From: a virus | Length of the DNA: 60,390 nt | IMG/VR virus record: IMGVR_UViG_3300025009_000111 | Location: 1-60,390 of that record | Reading direction: 5' to 3' (one strand) | Part shown: positions 2,944 to 60,390 of the stretch, one piece after another | How the letters are laid out: each line of letters starts with the position of its first letter | Position numbering within the stretch: position 1 is the first letter of the stretch | Made by a program: the position numbers and the translations under genes | Notes under the pieces: model-generated | What the model saw: only the letters and a program-made list of their open reading frames with translations | Databases searched by the model: none | Told to the model about the DNA's origin: nothing

Positions 2944-3078
2944 AGGTCACCGTATCTGCCCTTTTTGAAGCCGGAATAAGCAACCTGGGTAAAGGTATGG
3001 TTTTACCGTCCAAGTAGGATTTTAGTGGGGCAATAAGGCAAGAAAACGTAAGGAAACAGAAGGAAGGCGGGTAACGGA

Positions 3079-7421: not shown

Positions 7422-8359
7422 TAGTTTCTCCTCCGTCCTGTCACCGTGCCGTGGCTTATTTTTGCTTCTGGAGCACTTCCCCCTTTGAATTCTCCCCGGA
7501 ACAACTTCCCCCATTCTACAAGTGCTTCAGGCTTCAGGAAACTGTTCAACCAATACTTTTCACACACTTCCCGAAAGCCTTTTTTGCTGAATTCATTGGG
7601 CTTGATAAATGGCAATCCTGTAAACTCGGGATGAGGTAAGGAAACTAGATTGAAATTCCGTTCTCTGATCTTGGGCAATTCTTCTCGAATCACAGAATAG
7701 ATTTTATGTGTTACTGGAAGCTCCTTCAGGATATACTTGATAGCGGTCTTCTCGGCCACTCCCGGTATCCCATCTACATTGTCCCCTGAACAACCGGCAA
7801 GGATTTTCATTTGAAGCCACTGGGATGGAGTAATCCCATACCGTTGTTTGAGTGCCGGGACATTGGTGGTTATCTTCGTGGAAGGGTTATAGCAAGCAAC
7901 GTGTTCCCGAATACATTGGAACAGATCCTGGTCAGCAGTCACTATTACAGCTGGATTATCAGTGTTAGCCCGTCTCGAAAAAGCGGCCATAATGTCATCT
8001 GCTTCAAATCCATCAACAACCCAGCAATTCTTCCACCCAATTAAGGGCAAGACATTTTCACGTAACTCAACAATCTGTTTCTTGAATCCAGACCAAATCA
8101 TGCGTTCTTCTGGTGGTTGGTCCTCTTTGTTGTTGTGTCGATTTCCTTTGTACTTCAAATATGTTGTAGCACGGACAGAACAAGTGGGAGAGTCGAAACA
8201 GAAGATCATCTGATTTGTACTGAATATTTTACCCAATGACAATATTCGATTCAGCACTCCGAAAGTCACCCCGGTTCCTACATCTCCAGCAGTAAGGTTT
8301 GGAATTGTAGCCTTGGCCTGATGTGCGAGAAAAGATACATCGATCAATAAAGTTGTCAT
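7421..8359 (-). CDS. 5'-3' exonuclease / flap endonuclease (PolI N-domain type)
   Basis: A 312-residue FEN/PIN-fold nuclease. Metal ligands can be read at Asp7, Asp56 ('CFDS'), 'EADD' (119-122) and 'TADQD' (141-145). They are followed by the helix-hairpin-helix region 'SGDNVDGIPGVAEKTA', the DNA-binding H3TH motif of T5/T4 RNase H and Pol I 5' nucleases. Because the polymerase itself has no 5' nuclease domain, this separate protein likely removes RNA primers and flaps. The gene overlaps the RecA-like gene by four bases. Confidence 0.93.
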   Translation of the reverse strand: MTTLLIDVSFLAHQAKATIPNLTAGDVGTGVTFGVLNRILSLGKIFSTNQMIFCFDSPTCSVRATTYLKYKGNRHNNKEDQPPEERMIWSGFKKQIVELRENVLPLIGWKNCWVVDGFEADDIMAAFSRRANTDNPAVIVTADQDLFQCIREHVACYNPSTKITTNVPALKQRYGITPSQWLQMKILAGCSGDNVDGIPGVAEKTAIKYILKELPVTHKIYSVIREELPKIRERNFNLVSLPHPEFTGLPFIKPNEFSKKGFREVCEKYWLNSFLKPEALVEWGKLFRGEFKGGSAPEAKISHGTVTGRRRN

Positions 8360-9468
8360 TCTTCAAACCCTACTTCATCTGTATCTGATTCCGTGTTCCC
8401 AGACGTTTGGCTGTACCGTCCAGGACGTCGTAATTGTGCATCCAGTTCTCTCCAGGCATTTCCCGTGATTTTTGCCAAGTGTAGCTGGAGATTTTCTTTT
8501 TCTACGTGGCTGGCCAGGGTGTTAACCGTCCACTGCCCTTCCCCAAATTCTCCACCTGTTTTAAGGGCACCTTTTTCGCCCATTTTCCACGCCTTGATCT
8601 CACACAGCCAGAGGATGTTCGCCCGGACGTCGTCAACCCCATACCCATAGTAGATGGGTAGGTCAAACTGCATATGACAACCGGTTGCATGGTTCTTGGA
8701 AATCTTTACCCGAGCAACGATCCCGATCTCATGCTTCACTTCTCGTATTGTGCGAGTCAAGGTTTGCTTCACGGCCAGCCAGTACTGATAGCAAGCGTAA
8801 AACTTCAAAGCCCTTCCCCCGTTGTGTGTCTTGGGTGCAAAGCTGATCCCGATGTTGTCACGTGTCTGTGAGATTATCATCAGCAGTGATTCAGTGTCCT
8901 TCAATCCAGATTTGATTTTACGAAGCCCATCGCTGTTTGACTTGGCCTTGGCCATTCCATACGAACCCTTGACATCCTTTCCAGCGGCACGTGCTTTCAA
9001 GTCCTCCTCAAACTTGTCTAGCTCGACGGAACCGTTTAGAGCGTCCATACTGTCCAAAATCTTTACGAACGGGATACCAGCTTGAATCCTTGTCCAGGTC
9101 GCGTCATAGAAATCTTCAATAGTTGTTGAATTCCTTTCCACCAACCGTTTGGATAGGGTTCCGAACATCTGTTCCACATTAAACTCGTTTGATCGTTCAA
9201 CGTCGTCCAATTCAAGCTTGTACTGTTTCAACTTAGGATTCATCGCAGCTTCCGCCAGCGTGGTCAGTCCCAGTAAGGACTTCCCACTGGAACTATCCCC
9301 GATCACATGGACGATTTTCCCCGTCATATATCCACCTTGTTCACTACCGGAACAGGCAAGATTGAGGAGAGTACAGCCAGTGGGGATGTATCCTTTGACT
9401 GGAACGGAGGACTTTTCTTTGGAGGAAGTGCTTCGCTGTTCTGCGAACTTCTTGGACTTTGTTGACAT
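8356..9468 (-). CDS. RecA/UvsX-like recombinase
   Basis: A 370-residue RecA-family ATPase. Walker A 'GDSSSGKS' is at 57-64, Walker B-like 'VKILDSMDAL' near 125-134, and the L1/sensor region contains 'ISQTRDNIG', a typical phage RecA/UvsX signature. The N-terminus is a basic linker and the C-terminus is acidic ('SDTDEVGFEE'). Start 9468 is preferred: ggag stands 9 bases upstream, while the alternative is a TTG. It catalyses strand exchange with the gp32-like SSB encoded next. A terminator stands between the SSB gene and this one. Confidence 0.9.
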   Translation of the reverse strand: MSTKSKKFAEQRSTSSKEKSSVPVKGYIPTGCTLLNLACSGSEQGGYMTGKIVHVIGDSSSGKSLLGLTTLAEAAMNPKLKQYKLELDDVERSNEFNVEQMFGTLSKRLVERNSTTIEDFYDATWTRIQAGIPFVKILDSMDALNGSVELDKFEEDLKARAAGKDVKGSYGMAKAKSNSDGLRKIKSGLKDTESLLMIISQTRDNIGISFAPKTHNGGRALKFYACYQYWLAVKQTLTRTIREVKHEIGIVARVKISKNHATGCHMQFDLPIYYGYGVDDVRANILWLCEIKAWKMGEKGALKTGGEFGEGQWTVNTLASHVEKENLQLHLAKITGNAWRELDAQLRRPGRYSQTSGNTESDTDEVGFEE

Positions 9469-9485
9469 TTTAGCAATCTCCAACT

Positions 9486-11255: not shown

Positions 11256-12164
11256 TTACTTACTATTGACGCATTCGAAACAAGACATTGTCAAACCGGC
11301 ACGTCCAAGGTCATAGTAGTTCTTTTCGAATTGACACATGATATCATATGCCTTAGACATCCCGGAGTTAATCAAAACAGCATTCATATACCCAAGGACG
11401 CATCTTCGGACGCCTTCGGGTTCTTCCTCGATTCCTTTTAGAATCACCGATACTGTTTTCCAGTCTTTCCCCTTGAGTAGCGCTTGGCAAAGTCCATTGA
11501 CTTTCGATTCCGAGGTGGCAAGCTGGGTTGCCATCTCAGCCATTTGTTCAGGTGGTAATCCACGTATTTTGTCGAGGATGACAAGAGCAGTTCGGGCGGA
11601 TCCCATACAATCCCTGCTGATGATCTTCAGTACGTCCAGTGGGGGTTTGATCCCCTCGGCTTTGCACACGGGAATCAGCAATCCTTTGCCAATTTCTTCA
11701 GGAGACAGAAGTTGGGTTTCGAAAGACATGCAGCGAGTACGGATTGCCTTGAGGAGTTTATCTGGGTGGGTGGTGCAAAGAACGAAGTAAACGTGCTTTG
11801 GTGTGTCTTCCAGAGCCTTGAGCATTGCGCTCATGGCATCGTTTGACAGTTGATGGACTTCATCCATGACCCACATTCGGACTTTACCTTGGGAAGGGGA
11901 ATACACCATCTGCTTCCGGATTTCCCGAACTGTATCAATGCCGCGGAAGTCTCCCGAATCAATCTCGATATAGTCATTTTCTTCGCATCCGATTTGATTC
12001 TTGATGATTCTGGCGAGTGTTGTTTTCCCGGTGCCCGACGGTCCCGAGAACAAAATTGCATGCGGGGTATTGGTAAGATCCATCTTTCGAAGGGAATTGA
12101 TAATCCCCGTATTTCCGACCATTCCTTCCAGAGTATCCGGTCTGTATTTCTTGTACAGTTCCAT
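11256..12164 (-). CDS. Clamp loader AAA+ ATPase (RFC small/DnaX-like)
   Basis: A 302-residue AAA+ protein. Walker A 'GPSGTGKT' is at 41-48, Walker B 'MDEVHQ' lies near residue 100, sensor 1 'CTTH' follows, and 'IRTRCMSFE' carries the arginine-finger SRC-like motif of clamp loaders. C-terminal helices complete the collar. With the DnaN-like clamp (16290-17324) it should load the clamp for the phage polymerase. The first 42 codons and the region upstream of this gene are duplicated exactly at 12820-13002, with a foreign-looking segment between the copies, so the present 5' end is one of two copies. Confidence 0.9.
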   Translation of the reverse strand: MELYKKYRPDTLEGMVGNTGIINSLRKMDLTNTPHAILFSGPSGTGKTTLARIIKNQIGCEENDYIEIDSGDFRGIDTVREIRKQMVYSPSQGKVRMWVMDEVHQLSNDAMSAMLKALEDTPKHVYFVLCTTHPDKLLKAIRTRCMSFETQLLSPEEIGKGLLIPVCKAEGIKPPLDVLKIISRDCMGSARTALVILDKIRGLPPEQMAEMATQLATSESKVNGLCQALLKGKDWKTVSVILKGIEEEPEGVRRCVLGYMNAVLINSGMSKAYDIMCQFEKNYYDLGRAGLTMSCFECVNSK

Positions 12165-12221
12165 GTTTGTCTTACTCCCTAACTGTTAAGATTGGGTAAA
12201 CGGTGCCCCGAATCGAACGGG
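12039..12221. repeat. 183-bp perfect direct repeat, copy 1
   Basis: Identical over 183 bases to 12820-13002. It contains the first 42 codons of the clamp-loader gene, its ribosome site and about 57 bases upstream. It is the right-hand border (in transcription order) of the 598-bp inserted segment. Perfect identity implies a recent event or ongoing gene conversion. Confidence 0.95.
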
Positions 12222-12436
12222 TCGCCGCATTGCTTGCATGTGGTGGTCTCGACATCTTTCATCGGCTTTGGCGGGGCAATGCCCAGGCGCTTGGCCCGGG
12301 CGGCCTTGAGACAGTCCTCGTTGCAGTAGGACTGGCTGGGGCCGGTGGGGAGGAATGAACCTCCGCATTCCTTACATACGCGCGGAGTGGTCTTGACTTT
12401 GTCCATGACCTTCGAAAGTGCCGGGGGGTACGCCAT
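12179..12436 (-). CDS. Small zinc-ribbon protein carried by the insertion
   Basis: An 85-residue protein starting at an ATG with aaaggagat 6-8 bases upstream. It has Cys-x2-Cys ... Cys-x3-Cys ('CKECG', 'YCNEDC') and a second Cys-x2-Cys ('CKQCG'), so one complete and one half zinc site, joined by a basic linker. Zinc knuckles of this kind occur in HNH-type nucleases and small phage DNA-binding proteins; no catalytic residues are present. Its last 15 or so codons lie inside the 183-bp repeat, so the C-terminus was created at the insertion junction. Function unknown. Confidence 0.7.
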   Translation of the reverse strand: MAYPPALSKVMDKVKTTPRVCKECGGSFLPTGPSQSYCNEDCLKAARAKRLGIAPPKPMKDVETTTCKQCGDPFDSGHRLPNLNS

Positions 12437-12819
12437 GGGGGGATCTCCTTTGGTTGGGGTGGATGGTTCCCGTCTCTCCGGGATGTCACGCCTGTCCCCG
12501 ACGGCGTTCTCGGGTGCCAGCCCTTCAGCGGGGCGAGAGTCAAGCTCCGGTCTCTCCCGGATGTCACGCTCTTTCACGTTGTCATGCAGACGTGTTAACT
12601 TCGCGGTCTGCAAGCGAGTCTGGTCTCTGCCAGACGTCACGCCTGATTCTGTTCCCGTCCGATGTGTCATTTCAGGCGGGGGGTTCCGTGGCGTTCCGGG
12701 CGTTGCCGGGTGTGGTAGCCCTTCTATGGACATGATGGGGGATGACACCACCTCGACCCAGGTGGTCTGGGAATTGATCGGGACAACGTGGGTCCATCCG
12801 CCGGGATCGCGAACCGAGG
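12222..12819 (-). mobile_element. 598-bp inserted segment between direct repeats in clamp-loader locus
   Basis: The segment between the two 183-bp repeats has no counterpart elsewhere in the operon and is richer in G+C than the neighbours. It holds three tandem hairpin units and the zinc-ribbon gene, read leftward. Deleting the segment plus one repeat would restore an ordinary clamp-loader gene directly behind the upstream gene. It carries no transposase. A small element or a recombination-born tandem insertion is inferred. Confidence 0.6.
12470..12644 (-). repeat. Three tandem hairpin units with compensatory stems
   Basis: Units begin near 12470, 12547 and 12620, about 75 bases apart. On the plus strand each has a 4-bp stem around the loop TCTCTC or TCTCTG, then GATGTCACGC or GACGTCACGC. 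The stems are CCCG/CGGG, CCGG/CCGG and CTGG/CCAG: both sides change together while the loop and flank stay constant. Second hairpins follow (CCCGA/TCGGG in unit 1; GCAGAC/GTCTGC at about 12593-12618 in unit 2). Covariation indicates a structure conserved as RNA or as extruded DNA. Confidence 0.75.
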
Positions 12820-12945
12820 CGGTCCCGAGAACAAAATTGCATGCGGGGTATTGGTAAGATCCATCTTTCGAAGGGAATTGATAATCCCCGTATTTCCGAC
12901 CATTCCTTCCAGAGTATCCGGTCTGTATTTCTTGTACAGTTCCAT
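12724..12945 (-). pseudogene. Truncated duplicate of clamp-loader 5' end
   Basis: Starting from the second copy of the clamp-loader ATG at 12945, the frame is identical to the clamp loader for 42 codons, up to just before the Walker A loop. It then runs into inserted sequence for 31 unrelated codons and stops at 12724. The fragment lacks any ATPase motif. It keeps a full ribosome site, so it may be translated as a 73-residue peptide, but as a clamp loader it is broken. Confidence 0.85.
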
Positions 12946-13002
12946 GTTTGTCTTACTCCCTAACTGTTAAGATTGGGTAAACGGTGCCCCGAATCGAACG
13001 GG
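12820..13002. repeat. 183-bp perfect direct repeat, copy 2
   Basis: Identical to 12039-12221, offset by 781 bases. This copy is joined to the natural upstream sequence of the operon and is probably the original 5' end of the clamp-loader gene. Inside it lies a short inverted repeat, CCCCG-TTCGATT-CGGGG on the minus strand (12985-13001), which resembles a tRNA T-arm. Confidence 0.95.
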
Positions 13003-13018
13003 GTTGCTGGCATTGCAT

Positions 13019-26416: not shown

Positions 26417-27649
26417 ATGGCTGTGAATCAGTACACCAAGACCGAATTGGAAAAGCAAGTTGCCCGCAAGGTACACAAGAAATCTCAGCAGGTTGAACTG
26501 TTTGACCTTCCCCCAGATTGGAAGTCGTATTGGTGGGGAATGCCTCGGTTTGAGAATGGAGACTTGCACCCGCAGTATACAATGACGGTTTCCTTCATGA
26601 CCAAGGACGACAAGTTGGCTTTCGGCAAGAAGCTCGGAATTAAGATAAATGAAGCAACTCCTGGGATTTGGTTTCCAACTCAGCAGCGGCTGAAGCCTGG
26701 AGAATATCGGTATACTGGACCAAAGACGGATAGTCGGTATCCAATCTGCATCCCGAGCAAGGGACGTGCTGATTGTCAAACAACGGGGAAGTGCTTAGAC
26801 AAGATGGGTGTCAACTATCGGTTCTTCGTCGAAGATAACGAATACAAGAAGTACTGCGAGCATGTTGGATCCGAGCATGTCGTCAAGATGCCCTTCCACG
26901 ATTTAGGGAAAGGATCCATCCCGGCTCGTAACTATATCTGGGAGTGGGCGAAGGAAAAGAAGTGCAAGAGGCATTGGACTGTTGATGACAATATTCAAAA
27001 TTGGTACCGTGCCAATCATACCCGTCGTTTGATGGTGGAAGGGGGAGGGTTCTTTCACGCGATGGAGGACTTTGTCGATCGGTACCAGAATGTCGCTATG
27101 GCTGGTCCGCATCATATCGGGTTCTGCGCTGTCGGGCATTCAAAGATAGATCCAGTGCTTTGGAACAGTCGCGTGTACTCCTGCATCCTCCTCGATACCT
27201 CACTTCCCCATCGTTGGAGAGGACGGTACAACGAGGATACCGACCTTTCCATCAGGCTTCTCAAGGATGGGTATTGCACCTTGCTTTTCCACGCCTTAAT
27301 GATGAAAAAGGGGGATACAGCGGGTTCCAAGGGACATGCGATGAAGGGCGGGAACACGGACAACGTCTACAACGGAGGGGACCATCGGCTGGCTTTTGCT
27401 CAATCCCTAGCAGATCAACACCCGGACGTCGTCAAAGTCGTCTGGCGGTTCAATCGTTGGCACCACTTGGTCAACTACGCACCTTTCGCCCGGAACACTC
27501 CCGTGTTGAAGGAAGGCGTCACCCCCGTCGTATTGGACAACGAGTACGGCATGCAGTTGATTCGCGGCGAGAAGTATGATGAGCCTGAAGAGGAAGTTGA
27601 AACAAGTGCCGAAGAAGACTTCTCCGACCAGGAAGGATTTGAGGAATGA
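26417..27649 (+). CDS. TET-associated glycosyltransferase-like (TAGT) protein
   Basis: A 410-residue GT-A-fold protein. From about residue 115 the pattern reads 'ICIPSKGRA', 'FFVEDNEYKKYCEHVG', 'GKGSIPARNYIWEWA' and 'HWTVDDNIQNWY', whose Asp-Asp-Asn stands for the DxD metal/sugar-nucleotide motif. This matches phage TAGT enzymes that glucosylate hydroxymethylated bases in DNA. No TET or base-hydroxymethylating enzyme is evident in this window, so the acceptor is uncertain; it may be protein. The C-terminus is acidic. It sits between the terminase genes, which fits DNA modification before packaging. Confidence 0.7.
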   Translation: MAVNQYTKTELEKQVARKVHKKSQQVELFDLPPDWKSYWWGMPRFENGDLHPQYTMTVSFMTKDDKLAFGKKLGIKINEATPGIWFPTQQRLKPGEYRYTGPKTDSRYPICIPSKGRADCQTTGKCLDKMGVNYRFFVEDNEYKKYCEHVGSEHVVKMPFHDLGKGSIPARNYIWEWAKEKKCKRHWTVDDNIQNWYRANHTRRLMVEGGGFFHAMEDFVDRYQNVAMAGPHHIGFCAVGHSKIDPVLWNSRVYSCILLDTSLPHRWRGRYNEDTDLSIRLLKDGYCTLLFHALMMKKGDTAGSKGHAMKGGNTDNVYNGGDHRLAFAQSLADQHPDVVKVVWRFNRWHHLVNYAPFARNTPVLKEGVTPVVLDNEYGMQLIRGEKYDEPEEEVETSAEEDFSDQEGFEE

Positions 27650-29319
27650 AGGACCGACAAGCAGAACCAAAGAAGAAAAGGGGCAGGGCCCGCTCCTCCG
27701 GGATATATCGGGAGAAGGTAAGGGCCACAGAGAAGGGGGTGAGTTTGGGAGGGGTCAAGGTCAAGGGATTATCGTCCTTTTTAGTGAAACTAAAAAGAAA
27801 CAAGCAAATCCGTCAATCCGAGGAAAAAAAGGTTGTTGAAAAGAAGAAATTGCCCCCACTTTCGATAAAGATGGGAGGGGCAGAAGGCATAGAGGAGGCA
27901 ATAGAGAGAGTCAAGGCCAGCATAGCACGGGATAGCTTCCCGGTATTTGTGAAGGAGTTCTGGGAAACCATCTGCCAGGAGCCACTTATCTGGAACTGGC
28001 ACATGGAGGTACTTTGTAGGGTGGCGCAGGAGGTTGCCTTATTATCTATAGATAGAAGACCGAAGAAGCACGACTTGCTGATCAACGTGCCTCCAGGATC
28101 CAGCAAGTCAACTATCTTCAGTGTGATGCTTCCAGCGTGGTGTTTCGCACGTGATCCAACATTCCAGGCCATATGTGGAAGCTATTCGTTTAGCTTGTCA
28201 CTCGACTTGAGTATGAAGTCCCGGGATGTGATCCAAAGCGAGAAGTATCAACGGTGGTATGGATCATATGTTGATATACGTGCTGACCAATCTGCAAAGC
28301 AATACTTCAAGTTGAGTGCTGGTGGTTGGAGGTATGCAACAAGTACTGGTGGTGCAATCACAGGATTTCATGGACACTTGATCATAATTGATGATCCACT
28401 TGATCCTAACCGTGCAATCAGTAAGCCTGAGTTGAAGGCTGCCAACCATTGGATGGAGGAAACCTTACCAACAAGGAAAGTTGATAAACGGTCAACTCCA
28501 ACGATATTGATCATGCAGCGGTTGGCGCAGGACGATCCAAGTGGAAAATGGTTGGAGAAGAAAAAAGCTGGTAAACCAATATATCACATTTGTTTACCGG
28601 CAGAACTATCAGAACATGTTGCTCCTGTTGAGTTGAGGCTCAACTATATAGATGGTTTGTTGGACCCTATCCGCATGGACAAAGGGGTATTGGATGAGGC
28701 GAAAGGGAATGGCCAATATTCCTACGCTTGTCAATACGACCAGTGGCCGATACCGATGCAGGGTGGAATGTTCAAGGTCGAGGAATTTCTGTCTCGGATT
28801 ATCACGGTGTATCCCGATAAAATCGTAAGAGAAGTCAGATACTGGGATAAGGCAGGGACGGACCAGATGAAAAATCCAAATGCCTGTTTCACCGTGGGCG
28901 TTCGCATGGCATTGGTGCTTGGAACGAAGTTTGTCATTCGGGACGTTGTTCGTGGGCAGTGGGCGACAGATAAGCGGGAGGATATGATCAGGATGGTCGC
29001 AAACTTGGATGGACCTTCCGTTGAAGTTTGGATTGAGCAGGAACCTGGATCCGGAGGACTTGATTCAGCGAGGCAGACGATTAAGAACTTGGTAGGATTC
29101 AGAGCATATGCTGATCGACCTGTTGGAGATAAGGCCACGCGGGCGGATCCATTCTCTGTCCAAGTAAACGCCGGCAATGTGTGTCTTTGGCAGGGAAACT
29201 GGAACATGTCATTTATTGAGGAGCTGCAGTGGTTCCCGGTTGGTCAGTTCAAAGACCAAGTTGACGCAGCGTCCGGGGCGTTTGGACGGTTGCTCCAAAT
29301 AAAGTTGAAGGCTGGATGA
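27646..29319 (+). CDS. terL: Terminase large subunit
   Basis: A 557-residue packaging motor. An unusually long basic N-terminal extension (about 1-75, Lys/Arg rich) precedes the ATPase. Walker A-like 'NVPPGSSKST' and Walker B 'HLIIIDDPL' are clear. The C-terminal nuclease has 'RYWDKAGTD' as its first acidic motif and a later 'EQEPGSGGLDS'. It overlaps the glycosyltransferase gene by ATGA. The basic tail may be a DNA grip or could mean that the true start is downstream at the Met near residue 76. Confidence 0.93.
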   Translation: MKDRQAEPKKKRGRARSSGIYREKVRATEKGVSLGGVKVKGLSSFLVKLKRNKQIRQSEEKKVVEKKKLPPLSIKMGGAEGIEEAIERVKASIARDSFPVFVKEFWETICQEPLIWNWHMEVLCRVAQEVALLSIDRRPKKHDLLINVPPGSSKSTIFSVMLPAWCFARDPTFQAICGSYSFSLSLDLSMKSRDVIQSEKYQRWYGSYVDIRADQSAKQYFKLSAGGWRYATSTGGAITGFHGHLIIIDDPLDPNRAISKPELKAANHWMEETLPTRKVDKRSTPTILIMQRLAQDDPSGKWLEKKKAGKPIYHICLPAELSEHVAPVELRLNYIDGLLDPIRMDKGVLDEAKGNGQYSYACQYDQWPIPMQGGMFKVEEFLSRIITVYPDKIVREVRYWDKAGTDQMKNPNACFTVGVRMALVLGTKFVIRDVVRGQWATDKREDMIRMVANLDGPSVEVWIEQEPGSGGLDSARQTIKNLVGFRAYADRPVGDKATRADPFSVQVNAGNVCLWQGNWNMSFIEELQWFPVGQFKDQVDAASGAFGRLLQIKLKAG

Positions 29320-54835: not shown

Positions 54836-58381
<3,546 letters not shown>

Positions 58382-58382
58382 C

Positions 58383-58811
58383 ATGAAGAAGTATAAAGTA
58401 ATATCTAACTATGCAGGTATTATCAGAGATGATGGGGCAAGTATTCCGTTTTGTATCAATAATTCGGATTATCAAGAGCATCTTCAATGGCTTGCTGATG
58501 GCAACACACCAGATATCGAAGAATCTGTTGTTGATCCGCAGATAGCAATCAAACTGCAAGAACGTATGGAACTAGAGAATGAGTATTTGGAAGCGTCTAA
58601 ACTTTTGTGTCAGCTTGCCGGTGATACTATTCCTGACGGTGTGTGGCCTAAGCTAGAGGCAATCGAGTATAAAGAGAAAGCATTGATTGCCGAGAAGCAT
58701 CCGAATTTCACATCACGCATCACGGAAACCCTCTTGTACTGCCTTTTTGAATTGAAGATGATGGGCTGGACTTGGGAACAGATCGAATACAGAAACGACA
58801 TAGTGGAGTAA
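58383..58811 (+). CDS. Fibre-region protein (tail fibre assembly-like)
   Basis: A 142-residue protein ('YKVISNYAGIIRDDGASIPF', then 'YQEHLQWLADGNTPD'), with a helical, charged second half. The N-terminal pattern, a strand-rich opening with a W-L-A-x-G-N-x-P motif, resembles small tail-fibre-associated and chaperone proteins that follow fibre genes in phages. It lies between the two collagen-like fibre genes. Confidence 0.65.
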   Translation: MKKYKVISNYAGIIRDDGASIPFCINNSDYQEHLQWLADGNTPDIEESVVDPQIAIKLQERMELENEYLEASKLLCQLAGDTIPDGVWPKLEAIEYKEKALIAEKHPNFTSRITETLLYCLFELKMMGWTWEQIEYRNDIVE

Positions 58812-58817
58812 TTACAC

Positions 58818-60390
<1,573 letters not shown>

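Follow-up and report, generated by a model that had tools for sequence, protein, structure and literature searches.

The closest described counterparts of the RNA unit reported here are RNA elements of antitermination. According to the available part of PMC9378689, the put RNAs of phage HK022 are ~70 nt long, form two stem-loops, bind the β′ zinc-binding domain and the flap tip, and, with no protein needed, suppress both pausing and termination; ten known put sequences are aligned in this structural paper. As far as the available text of PMC11658703 goes, canT of Tn916, EAR of B. subtilis and conAn2 of pLS20 are RNA elements that take part in processive antitermination. Here, a 60,390-nt stretch of viral DNA, hereafter termed the window, was found to carry on its minus strand, at positions 12467-12699, three units that are non-coding and not the product of chance. 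By analogy with HK022, the array would be a tandem set of three cis-acting antitermination RNAs that work like put, a reading to which we assign a probability of roughly 0.6, and the best reading of the unit and its relatives is that of a put-like RNA far more widespread than put. The RNA unit appears to be new: Rfam 15, ribozymes included, gave no match to it in the window and revealed only tRNAs in 13 relative loci, and no report of it was found in the literature searched, which comprised open-library papers.

The 24-nt direct repeats of the array occupy positions 12468-12491, 12546-12569 and 12619-12642, with a spacing of 78 and then 73 nt. An initial sequence-only reading of this DNA had described three tandem hairpins at this place, at about 75-base spacing, and its stem and loop letters, read on the plus strand, match those found here. 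On the minus strand the 3′ end of every window unit reads GYGTGAC-stem-SAGAGA-stem. When GTGACRTCNNNSAGAGA was searched with up to two mismatches, the sole matches in the 60,390 bases were the three window units, all of them exact, and none of 40 mononucleotide shuffles of the insert that holds the array, 598 nt long, produced three such copies. A 127-codon frame is open across the array and could suggest that the repeats encode a proline- and arginine-rich protein. The probability of this is negligible, since the units fall in two reading frames, with a spacing of 73 that is not a multiple of three, the stems covary, the codon-position G+C of the open frame is flat (65/57/65% vs 54/52/73 in the neighboring zinc-ribbon gene) and no protein relative was found for its first 60 codons; the conserved-protein explanation that the initial reading had set against its own does not apply here. 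Other candidates considered and dropped were a CRISPR or tandem guide array, a glycine riboswitch, which GGAGAGAC resembles, and the hammerhead, twister and HDV ribozymes, for which Rfam gave no match.

The unit is a structured RNA under selection for base pairing, in which three helices, P0, P1 and P2, all covary. It comprises, in order, a P0 hairpin, a P0 loop, usually GAACGCC, that pairs with a downstream GGCGT to form P1, the trinucleotide GAC, and a P2 hairpin of 4-6 bp closed by a 6-nt GAGAGA loop. P0 and P1 together form a pseudoknot, and the hairpins noticed at the outset constitute the 3′ half of the unit; the "additional hairpins" placed between them are in part the 5′ half, the P0/P1 pseudoknot having been missed. 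The 5′ half was identified by asking which upstream strand pairs with GGYGT. Among 94 distinct GGCGT units, 62 had only ACGCC or ACGTC in reach, 11 only ACACC and 20 neither, while 43 of 52 distinct GGTGT units had only ACACC, one only ACGCC or ACGTC and six neither; three units in this comparison had both partner types. The rarer P1 forms ACGAC/GTCGT, ACGTC/GACGT and ACCGC/GCGGT represent added compensations. By a strict test, 17 of 23 units with an unusual 3′ strand lacked a P1 partner, and 4 of the same 23 would have one if GGCGT were substituted. Overall, a 5-bp P1 preceded by A was present in 72 of 174 units vs 13.2 with shuffled upstream sequence. A P0 of at least 3 bp lay at the expected place in 32 of 64 units (500 flank swaps gave a mean of 12.7 and a maximum of 21), a count that decreased to 18-19 upon sliding by one base and to 3-9 upon sliding by two to four bases.

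Alignment A1 was drawn from units in which a P1 had been found and the spacer did not exceed 17 nt; of 43 such units it holds 40. Within it, P0, P1 and P2 are paired in 89%, 99% and 98.5% of cases, respectively, and 97.3% of pair cells hold standard pairs vs 76.7% in shuffles, none of 500 shuffles reaching 97.3%. Two-sided changes were observed at four of five pairs in P2, two of two in P0 and one of five in P1, where changes in the 3′ strand are fewer because the search pattern fixed that strand; G-U pairs are tolerated in the stems. The two internal covarying pairs of the window hairpins, which had been taken as evidence for selection on base pairing, are real, weak with the three copies alone and strong once relatives are added. 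The search for more copies that had been proposed as a check returned many relatives with further compensatory changes, which bear out both selection on pairing and the suggestion of a structured RNA located 5′ of genes. A covariance model, R1, was built from A1 with P1 and P2 only, without the pseudoknot.

Unit 1 (12618-12699, minus strand, as for all three units) contains a 3-bp P0 (CCG 12699-12697/CGG 12688-12686) with GA at 12696-12695, a long-spacer P1 (ACGCC 12694-12690/GGCGT 12643-12639), GAC at 12638-12636 and a P2 (GTCTGG 12635-12630/CCAGAC 12623-12618) with the loop CAGAGA at 12629-12624. It scores 21.8 bits against R1 (E 0.00046 over 12618-12660), the model not bridging the long spacer and the loop starting with C rather than G. 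Unit 2 (12545-12587) lacks a clear P0 and displays a weak P1 (ACGT 12579-12576/GCGT 12569-12566) of four pairs, one of them G-U, which fails the 5-bp P1 test; GAC at 12565-12563 is followed by P2 (TCCGG 12561-12557/CCGGA 12550-12546) with the loop GAGAGA at 12556-12551, and the unit scores 31.6 bits (E 1.6e-6). Its poor P0 and P1 are a point against a put-like role. Unit 3 (12467-12515) contains a 5-bp P0 (CCCGA 12514-12510/TCGGG 12501-12497) with GA at 12509-12508, P1 (ACGCC 12507-12503/GGCGT 12492-12488), GAC at 12487-12485 and P2 (TCCCG 12483-12479/CGGGA 12472-12468) with the loop GAGAGA at 12478-12473; its score of 56.5 bits (E 1.1e-12) is that of one of the 40 units from which R1 was built.

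The RNA unit is common to many unrelated phages with very different hosts. An exact-pattern scan of viral contigs returned 29 stretches, a few with further diverged units nearby. A strict tandem pattern gave no match there, and a tandem pattern relaxed after variants had been seen among diverged units gave 44 stretches; in genome contigs the tandem pattern gave five, which on inspection are repeats of other kinds. The single-unit pattern GGYGTGACNNNNNGGAGAGAC matched IMG/VR viral DNA in at least 120 stretches, compared with 10 for the reversed pattern, and although the 3′ half of the P2 stem is absent from this pattern, at least four P2 pairs were present in 69 of 89 unit rows (loci L164-L240). 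Consensus probes matched phages of, among others, Vibrio, Stenotrophomonas, Pseudomonas, Cronobacter and Morganella, as well as Rhodobacter, Phaeobacter, Gordonia, Planktothrix and Microcystis; the host groups include Enterobacterales, and the matches include weak chance ones (e.g. Salmonella SP-031). When R1 was applied to 20 phage records or stretches besides HK022, 16 matched at E 1e-4 or better, the remaining four being Alexa (1.1e-4), Medea1 (3.5e-4), phiSHP3 (1.3e-3) and PhiPLPE (only 0.023); the units of Pag-Yong1 and MW202657 belong to the 40 that built the model. Among 90 loci (742 kb) that had been retrieved for unrelated purposes, a single match reached E < 0.01. Several of the phage RNA units carry the loop GAAAGA. 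The mEp390 unit is located at 27450-27481 of NC_019721.1, on the minus strand; searched with its flank, it matches once in 5,426 complete E. coli genomes (NZ_CM132251.1, 2829495-2829590).

The genomic setting of the unit was assessed in 130 loci, one unit each, which are partly related, so that the position, terminator and tRNA counts do not represent independent events. All these counts, and those on P2 joining, start-codon distance, P0 and P1, exclude loci L001, L115 (the window itself) and L159-L163, and units with fewer than three stem pairs (P2-joining count) or four stem pairs (other counts). The unit overlaps a called ORF in 48 loci, though ORFs cover 80% of the DNA, and in the 82 loci outside ORFs the next gene lies on the same strand in 56, on the opposite strand in 18 and is absent in 8. 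The 400 nt that follow the unit contain an intrinsic terminator on its own strand in 10 of 122 loci vs 1 of 123 upstream and 2 of 122 on the opposite strand; at 400-800 nt downstream the count is 6 of 115. Within 300 nt, a tRNA lies downstream on the same strand in 14 of the 130 loci, upstream in 4 and downstream on the opposite strand in none. By annotation, the unit of mEp390, Mannheimia 587AP2, Medea1 and Cruim01 follows a CI-like repressor and precedes the next genes. In phiSHP3 it comes after the gene for the major capsid protein, in Vibrio PE002 it separates lysis from terminase genes, and a Morganella phage has it ahead of holin and terminase; in MD18 and Mwe-JY26 it lies within the tRNA arrays. 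The annotated next gene lies on the opposite strand in Alexa, 1.103.O, RcCWillis and Bajun; in 1.103.O, ARAGORN places a tRNA on the unit's own strand. The annotated settings named first are untranslated or polar, and termination there would be most costly to the phage. Two points in these counts speak against a put-like role, namely that terminator enrichment is modest and that 18 of 74 intergenic loci have the next gene on the opposite strand.

The strongest rival to put-like antitermination arises from the same positions, because units end 4-12 nt ahead of a tRNA in 8 of 130 loci: the unit might be an RNA-processing element, either an RNase site or a small self-cleaving RNA, that separates an mRNA from the following gene or tRNA. 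Its compactness, its highly conserved unpaired bases and its mostly intergenic location agree with this proposal, which we nevertheless consider unlikely, since some units are located in long leaders, well away from the next gene, Rfam ribozymes gave no match, and the put-like pseudoknot with its GAACG loop would be left without explanation. A second proposal takes the GGAGAGA of the P2 loop as a Shine-Dalgarno sequence whose stem tunes initiation of the next gene. A start codon lies within 70 nt of 75 of 162 units (counting ORFs of at least 60 codons, or at least 40 if cut by the locus end), and 12 units, several of them in related phages, share an identical distance of 19 nt. Unit-to-start distances scatter, however, from 13 to 66 nt, far beyond the usual Shine-Dalgarno spacing, many genes, including that in the window, have their own GGAG in between, and units precede tRNAs too, which renders translational control improbable. 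The start-associated sequences of cluster K mycobacteriophages are likewise small hairpins repeated upstream of genes; they are located at start codons and have a different sequence, whereas the distances of the RNA unit vary and it also precedes tRNAs.

A conserved loop in a covarying stem is also typical of sites bound by phage or host proteins, such as a translational repressor, an mRNA stabilizer or a decay barrier, which would have no effect on termination, and one group of related contigs has its arrays after a capsid-like gene. This possibility appears distinctly unlikely, as no single gene was found to accompany the unit in annotated phages and the unit is found ahead of tRNAs and early operons. 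The more specific suggestion that the array binds the zinc-ribbon protein encoded next to it is not supported: most relatives precede quite other genes or tRNAs, and the protein itself has only three relatives in viral contigs, all weak, short local matches. In the contigs just mentioned (L116, L124, L117, L125 and L150), two to five units are present each, several after the capsid-like gene, and an identical 5′ half is joined to differing P2 hairpins, as if the units recombined at the conserved GGCGTGAC. In L125, for which no DNA relatives were found, a 16-codon open frame (8035-8082, minus strand) begins just after one unit and stops at the TGA within the GGCGTGAC of the next.

The array precedes, as had been noted, the 85-residue zinc-ribbon ORF (P0001, 12179-12436, minus strand, start at 12436), which lies directly 3′ of it and has its own AAAGGAG between Unit 3 and the ATG. 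The best PHROG match of this ORF is the HNH endonuclease family phrog_1271 (E 1.8e-8, residues 15-78), and it may be what is left of a homing element. The array and most of the zinc-ribbon gene are contained in a G+C-rich insert (12222-12819, 598 nt) of ~60% G+C, compared with mostly 45-50% in the surroundings. An exact 183-nt direct repeat (12039-12221 and 12820-13002) flanks the insert, and the end of the zinc-ribbon ORF falls within it. The repeat copies the clamp-loader leader and first 42 codons, leaving the upstream copy truncated, and may have arisen by recent recombination or be an artefact of assembly. Both the insert with its repeat and the joining of one 5′ half to differing P2 hairpins in related contigs could point to a DNA element, in which a hairpin serving recombination or mobility would use its stems as folded single-stranded DNA. 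This is highly improbable, because the unit displays a strand bias toward the downstream gene (56 vs 18) and toward same-strand tRNAs, and its stems tolerate G-U pairs, as in RNA. The sequence-only proposal that the hairpins could be recognition ends of a mobile element is not supported either: the unit is one-sided, is usually oriented with transcription, and does not occur as a pair at the ends of an element. On the minus strand at 12981-13003, CCCCGTTCGATTCGGGG followed by CACCGT resembles a tRNA T arm and 3′ acceptor end, and a copy near 12210 has one stem C fewer; ARAGORN called no tRNA in the window. Elsewhere in the window (54836-60390), a long ORF encodes a long run of GPT-like (collagen-like) repeats.

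Downstream of the zinc-ribbon ORF lie the clamp-loader gene (11256-12164, minus strand; phrog_5846, E 3e-55) and, beyond it, a UvsX-like recombinase gene (8356-9483, minus strand; phrog_97) and further minus-strand ORFs, so that the array is located ahead of replication genes and on their strand. No DNA relatives of the window region were found among phages, and only 1 of 80 related clamp-loader loci in viral contigs has a unit at E < 0.01, which is a further point against a put-like role. If the array works like put, minus-strand transcription would allow each unit to fold into an H-type pseudoknot, formed by P0 and P1, beside a short P2 hairpin with its GAGAGA loop. The folded unit would stay on the elongating RNA polymerase, with a contact probably at the RNA exit channel near the β′ zinc-binding domain, by analogy with put, and would suppress pausing and termination such that the untranslated gap and the downstream replication genes are transcribed. 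Also against this reading, the minus strand beyond the array was found to hold no terminator-like site as far as position 3000, so that in the window the array would act on Rho-dependent ends, pauses or distant sites, or else would be a passenger of the insert. Put-like antitermination was preferred because it accounts at once for fold, loop, strand, host breadth and position, and the wide host range fits a target as conserved as RNA polymerase. The analysis shows the structure, its conservation, its strand bias and where it lies in genomes; polymerase binding and read-through are inferred.

For a direct comparison, putL was located in HK022 at 28312 on the minus strand, where it fits 22 of 22 residue facts in the available part of PMC9378689; putL and putR are confirmed by the annotation of HK75 and O276, and put is annotated in HK639 too. 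In putL, A3-G7 pairs with C15-U19, and the loop C10-G14 lies opposite C30-G34 with five possible pairs, one of which, G12-U32, is named in the same part of that paper. Both RNAs share the order P0 - xA - P1 - P0′ - spacer - P1′ - G - second stem, in which the 5′-hairpin loop pairs with the strand just before the junction to form the stem I pseudoknot. A pseudoknot rule with a P0 of 5 was satisfied by 73 of 3000 random 80-mers of putL composition, and since the topology alone is not rare, it is the shared loop sequence and the positions that carry the comparison. The P0 loop is GAACGGC in eight of eight put sequences examined and usually GAACGCC in the RNA unit, GAACG being common to both; ACGCC is preceded by G in 44 and by A in 38 of 46 RNA units, and the GGTGT/ACACC group has GACACC in place of GAACG. 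In put, A9 makes a non-canonical pair with G35, whereas in strict register the A pairs with U in the RNA unit; the A is common in the unit and the G after P1′ is present in all, this G being set by the search pattern. A crude scan for pseudoknots over 16.7 kb of HK022 placed putR and putL at the head of their strands, and a position ahead of early operons is common, in some phages, to put and the RNA unit.

Major differences, which weigh against a put-like role, were observed in the second stem, which in put is long and contains an internal loop (G42-U65, G43-A64, C44-A63), in contrast to the short P2 of the RNA unit, whose GAGAGA, GAAAGA or CAGAGA loop is not that of put. R1, lacking the pseudoknot, did not find putL in HK022 and gave putR only 4.2 bits (E 3), and no Rfam family matched at putL or putR. 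The RNA unit was not filed as put because the long stem II and recognition by a common model are absent. Relatives of put detected by BLAST fall almost wholly within phages of Enterobacterales; the RNA unit, unlike put, forms tandem arrays, occurs in late and tRNA regions and extends to hosts far outside that order. While put lies just downstream of the early promoters PL and PR, some RNA units are near CI-like repressors and many are elsewhere. Mutants in the β′ zinc-binding domain block antitermination by put. The canT region measures 452 nt (available text of PMC11658703), compared with ~50-80 nt for the RNA units, and canT, EAR and conAn2 are set apart from them by description only.

Common descent of the RNA unit and put is plausible. 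More tentatively, and at somewhat less than even odds, both may be members of one RNA class spread throughout phages of many bacterial phyla. Such RNAs would contact polymerase themselves and override termination with no protein involved, and phages would use them as single copies or as arrays in their early, late and tRNA regions; HK022 put would be a divergent enterobacterial twig of this class. put is an odd case in which RNA alone reprograms the polymerase; if the unit acts like put, RNA-only antitermination would be common in phages of Proteobacteria, Actinobacteria and Cyanobacteria, would be represented by hundreds of natural variants, and would help to account for the transcription of long operons, untranslated gaps and tRNA arrays in phages.
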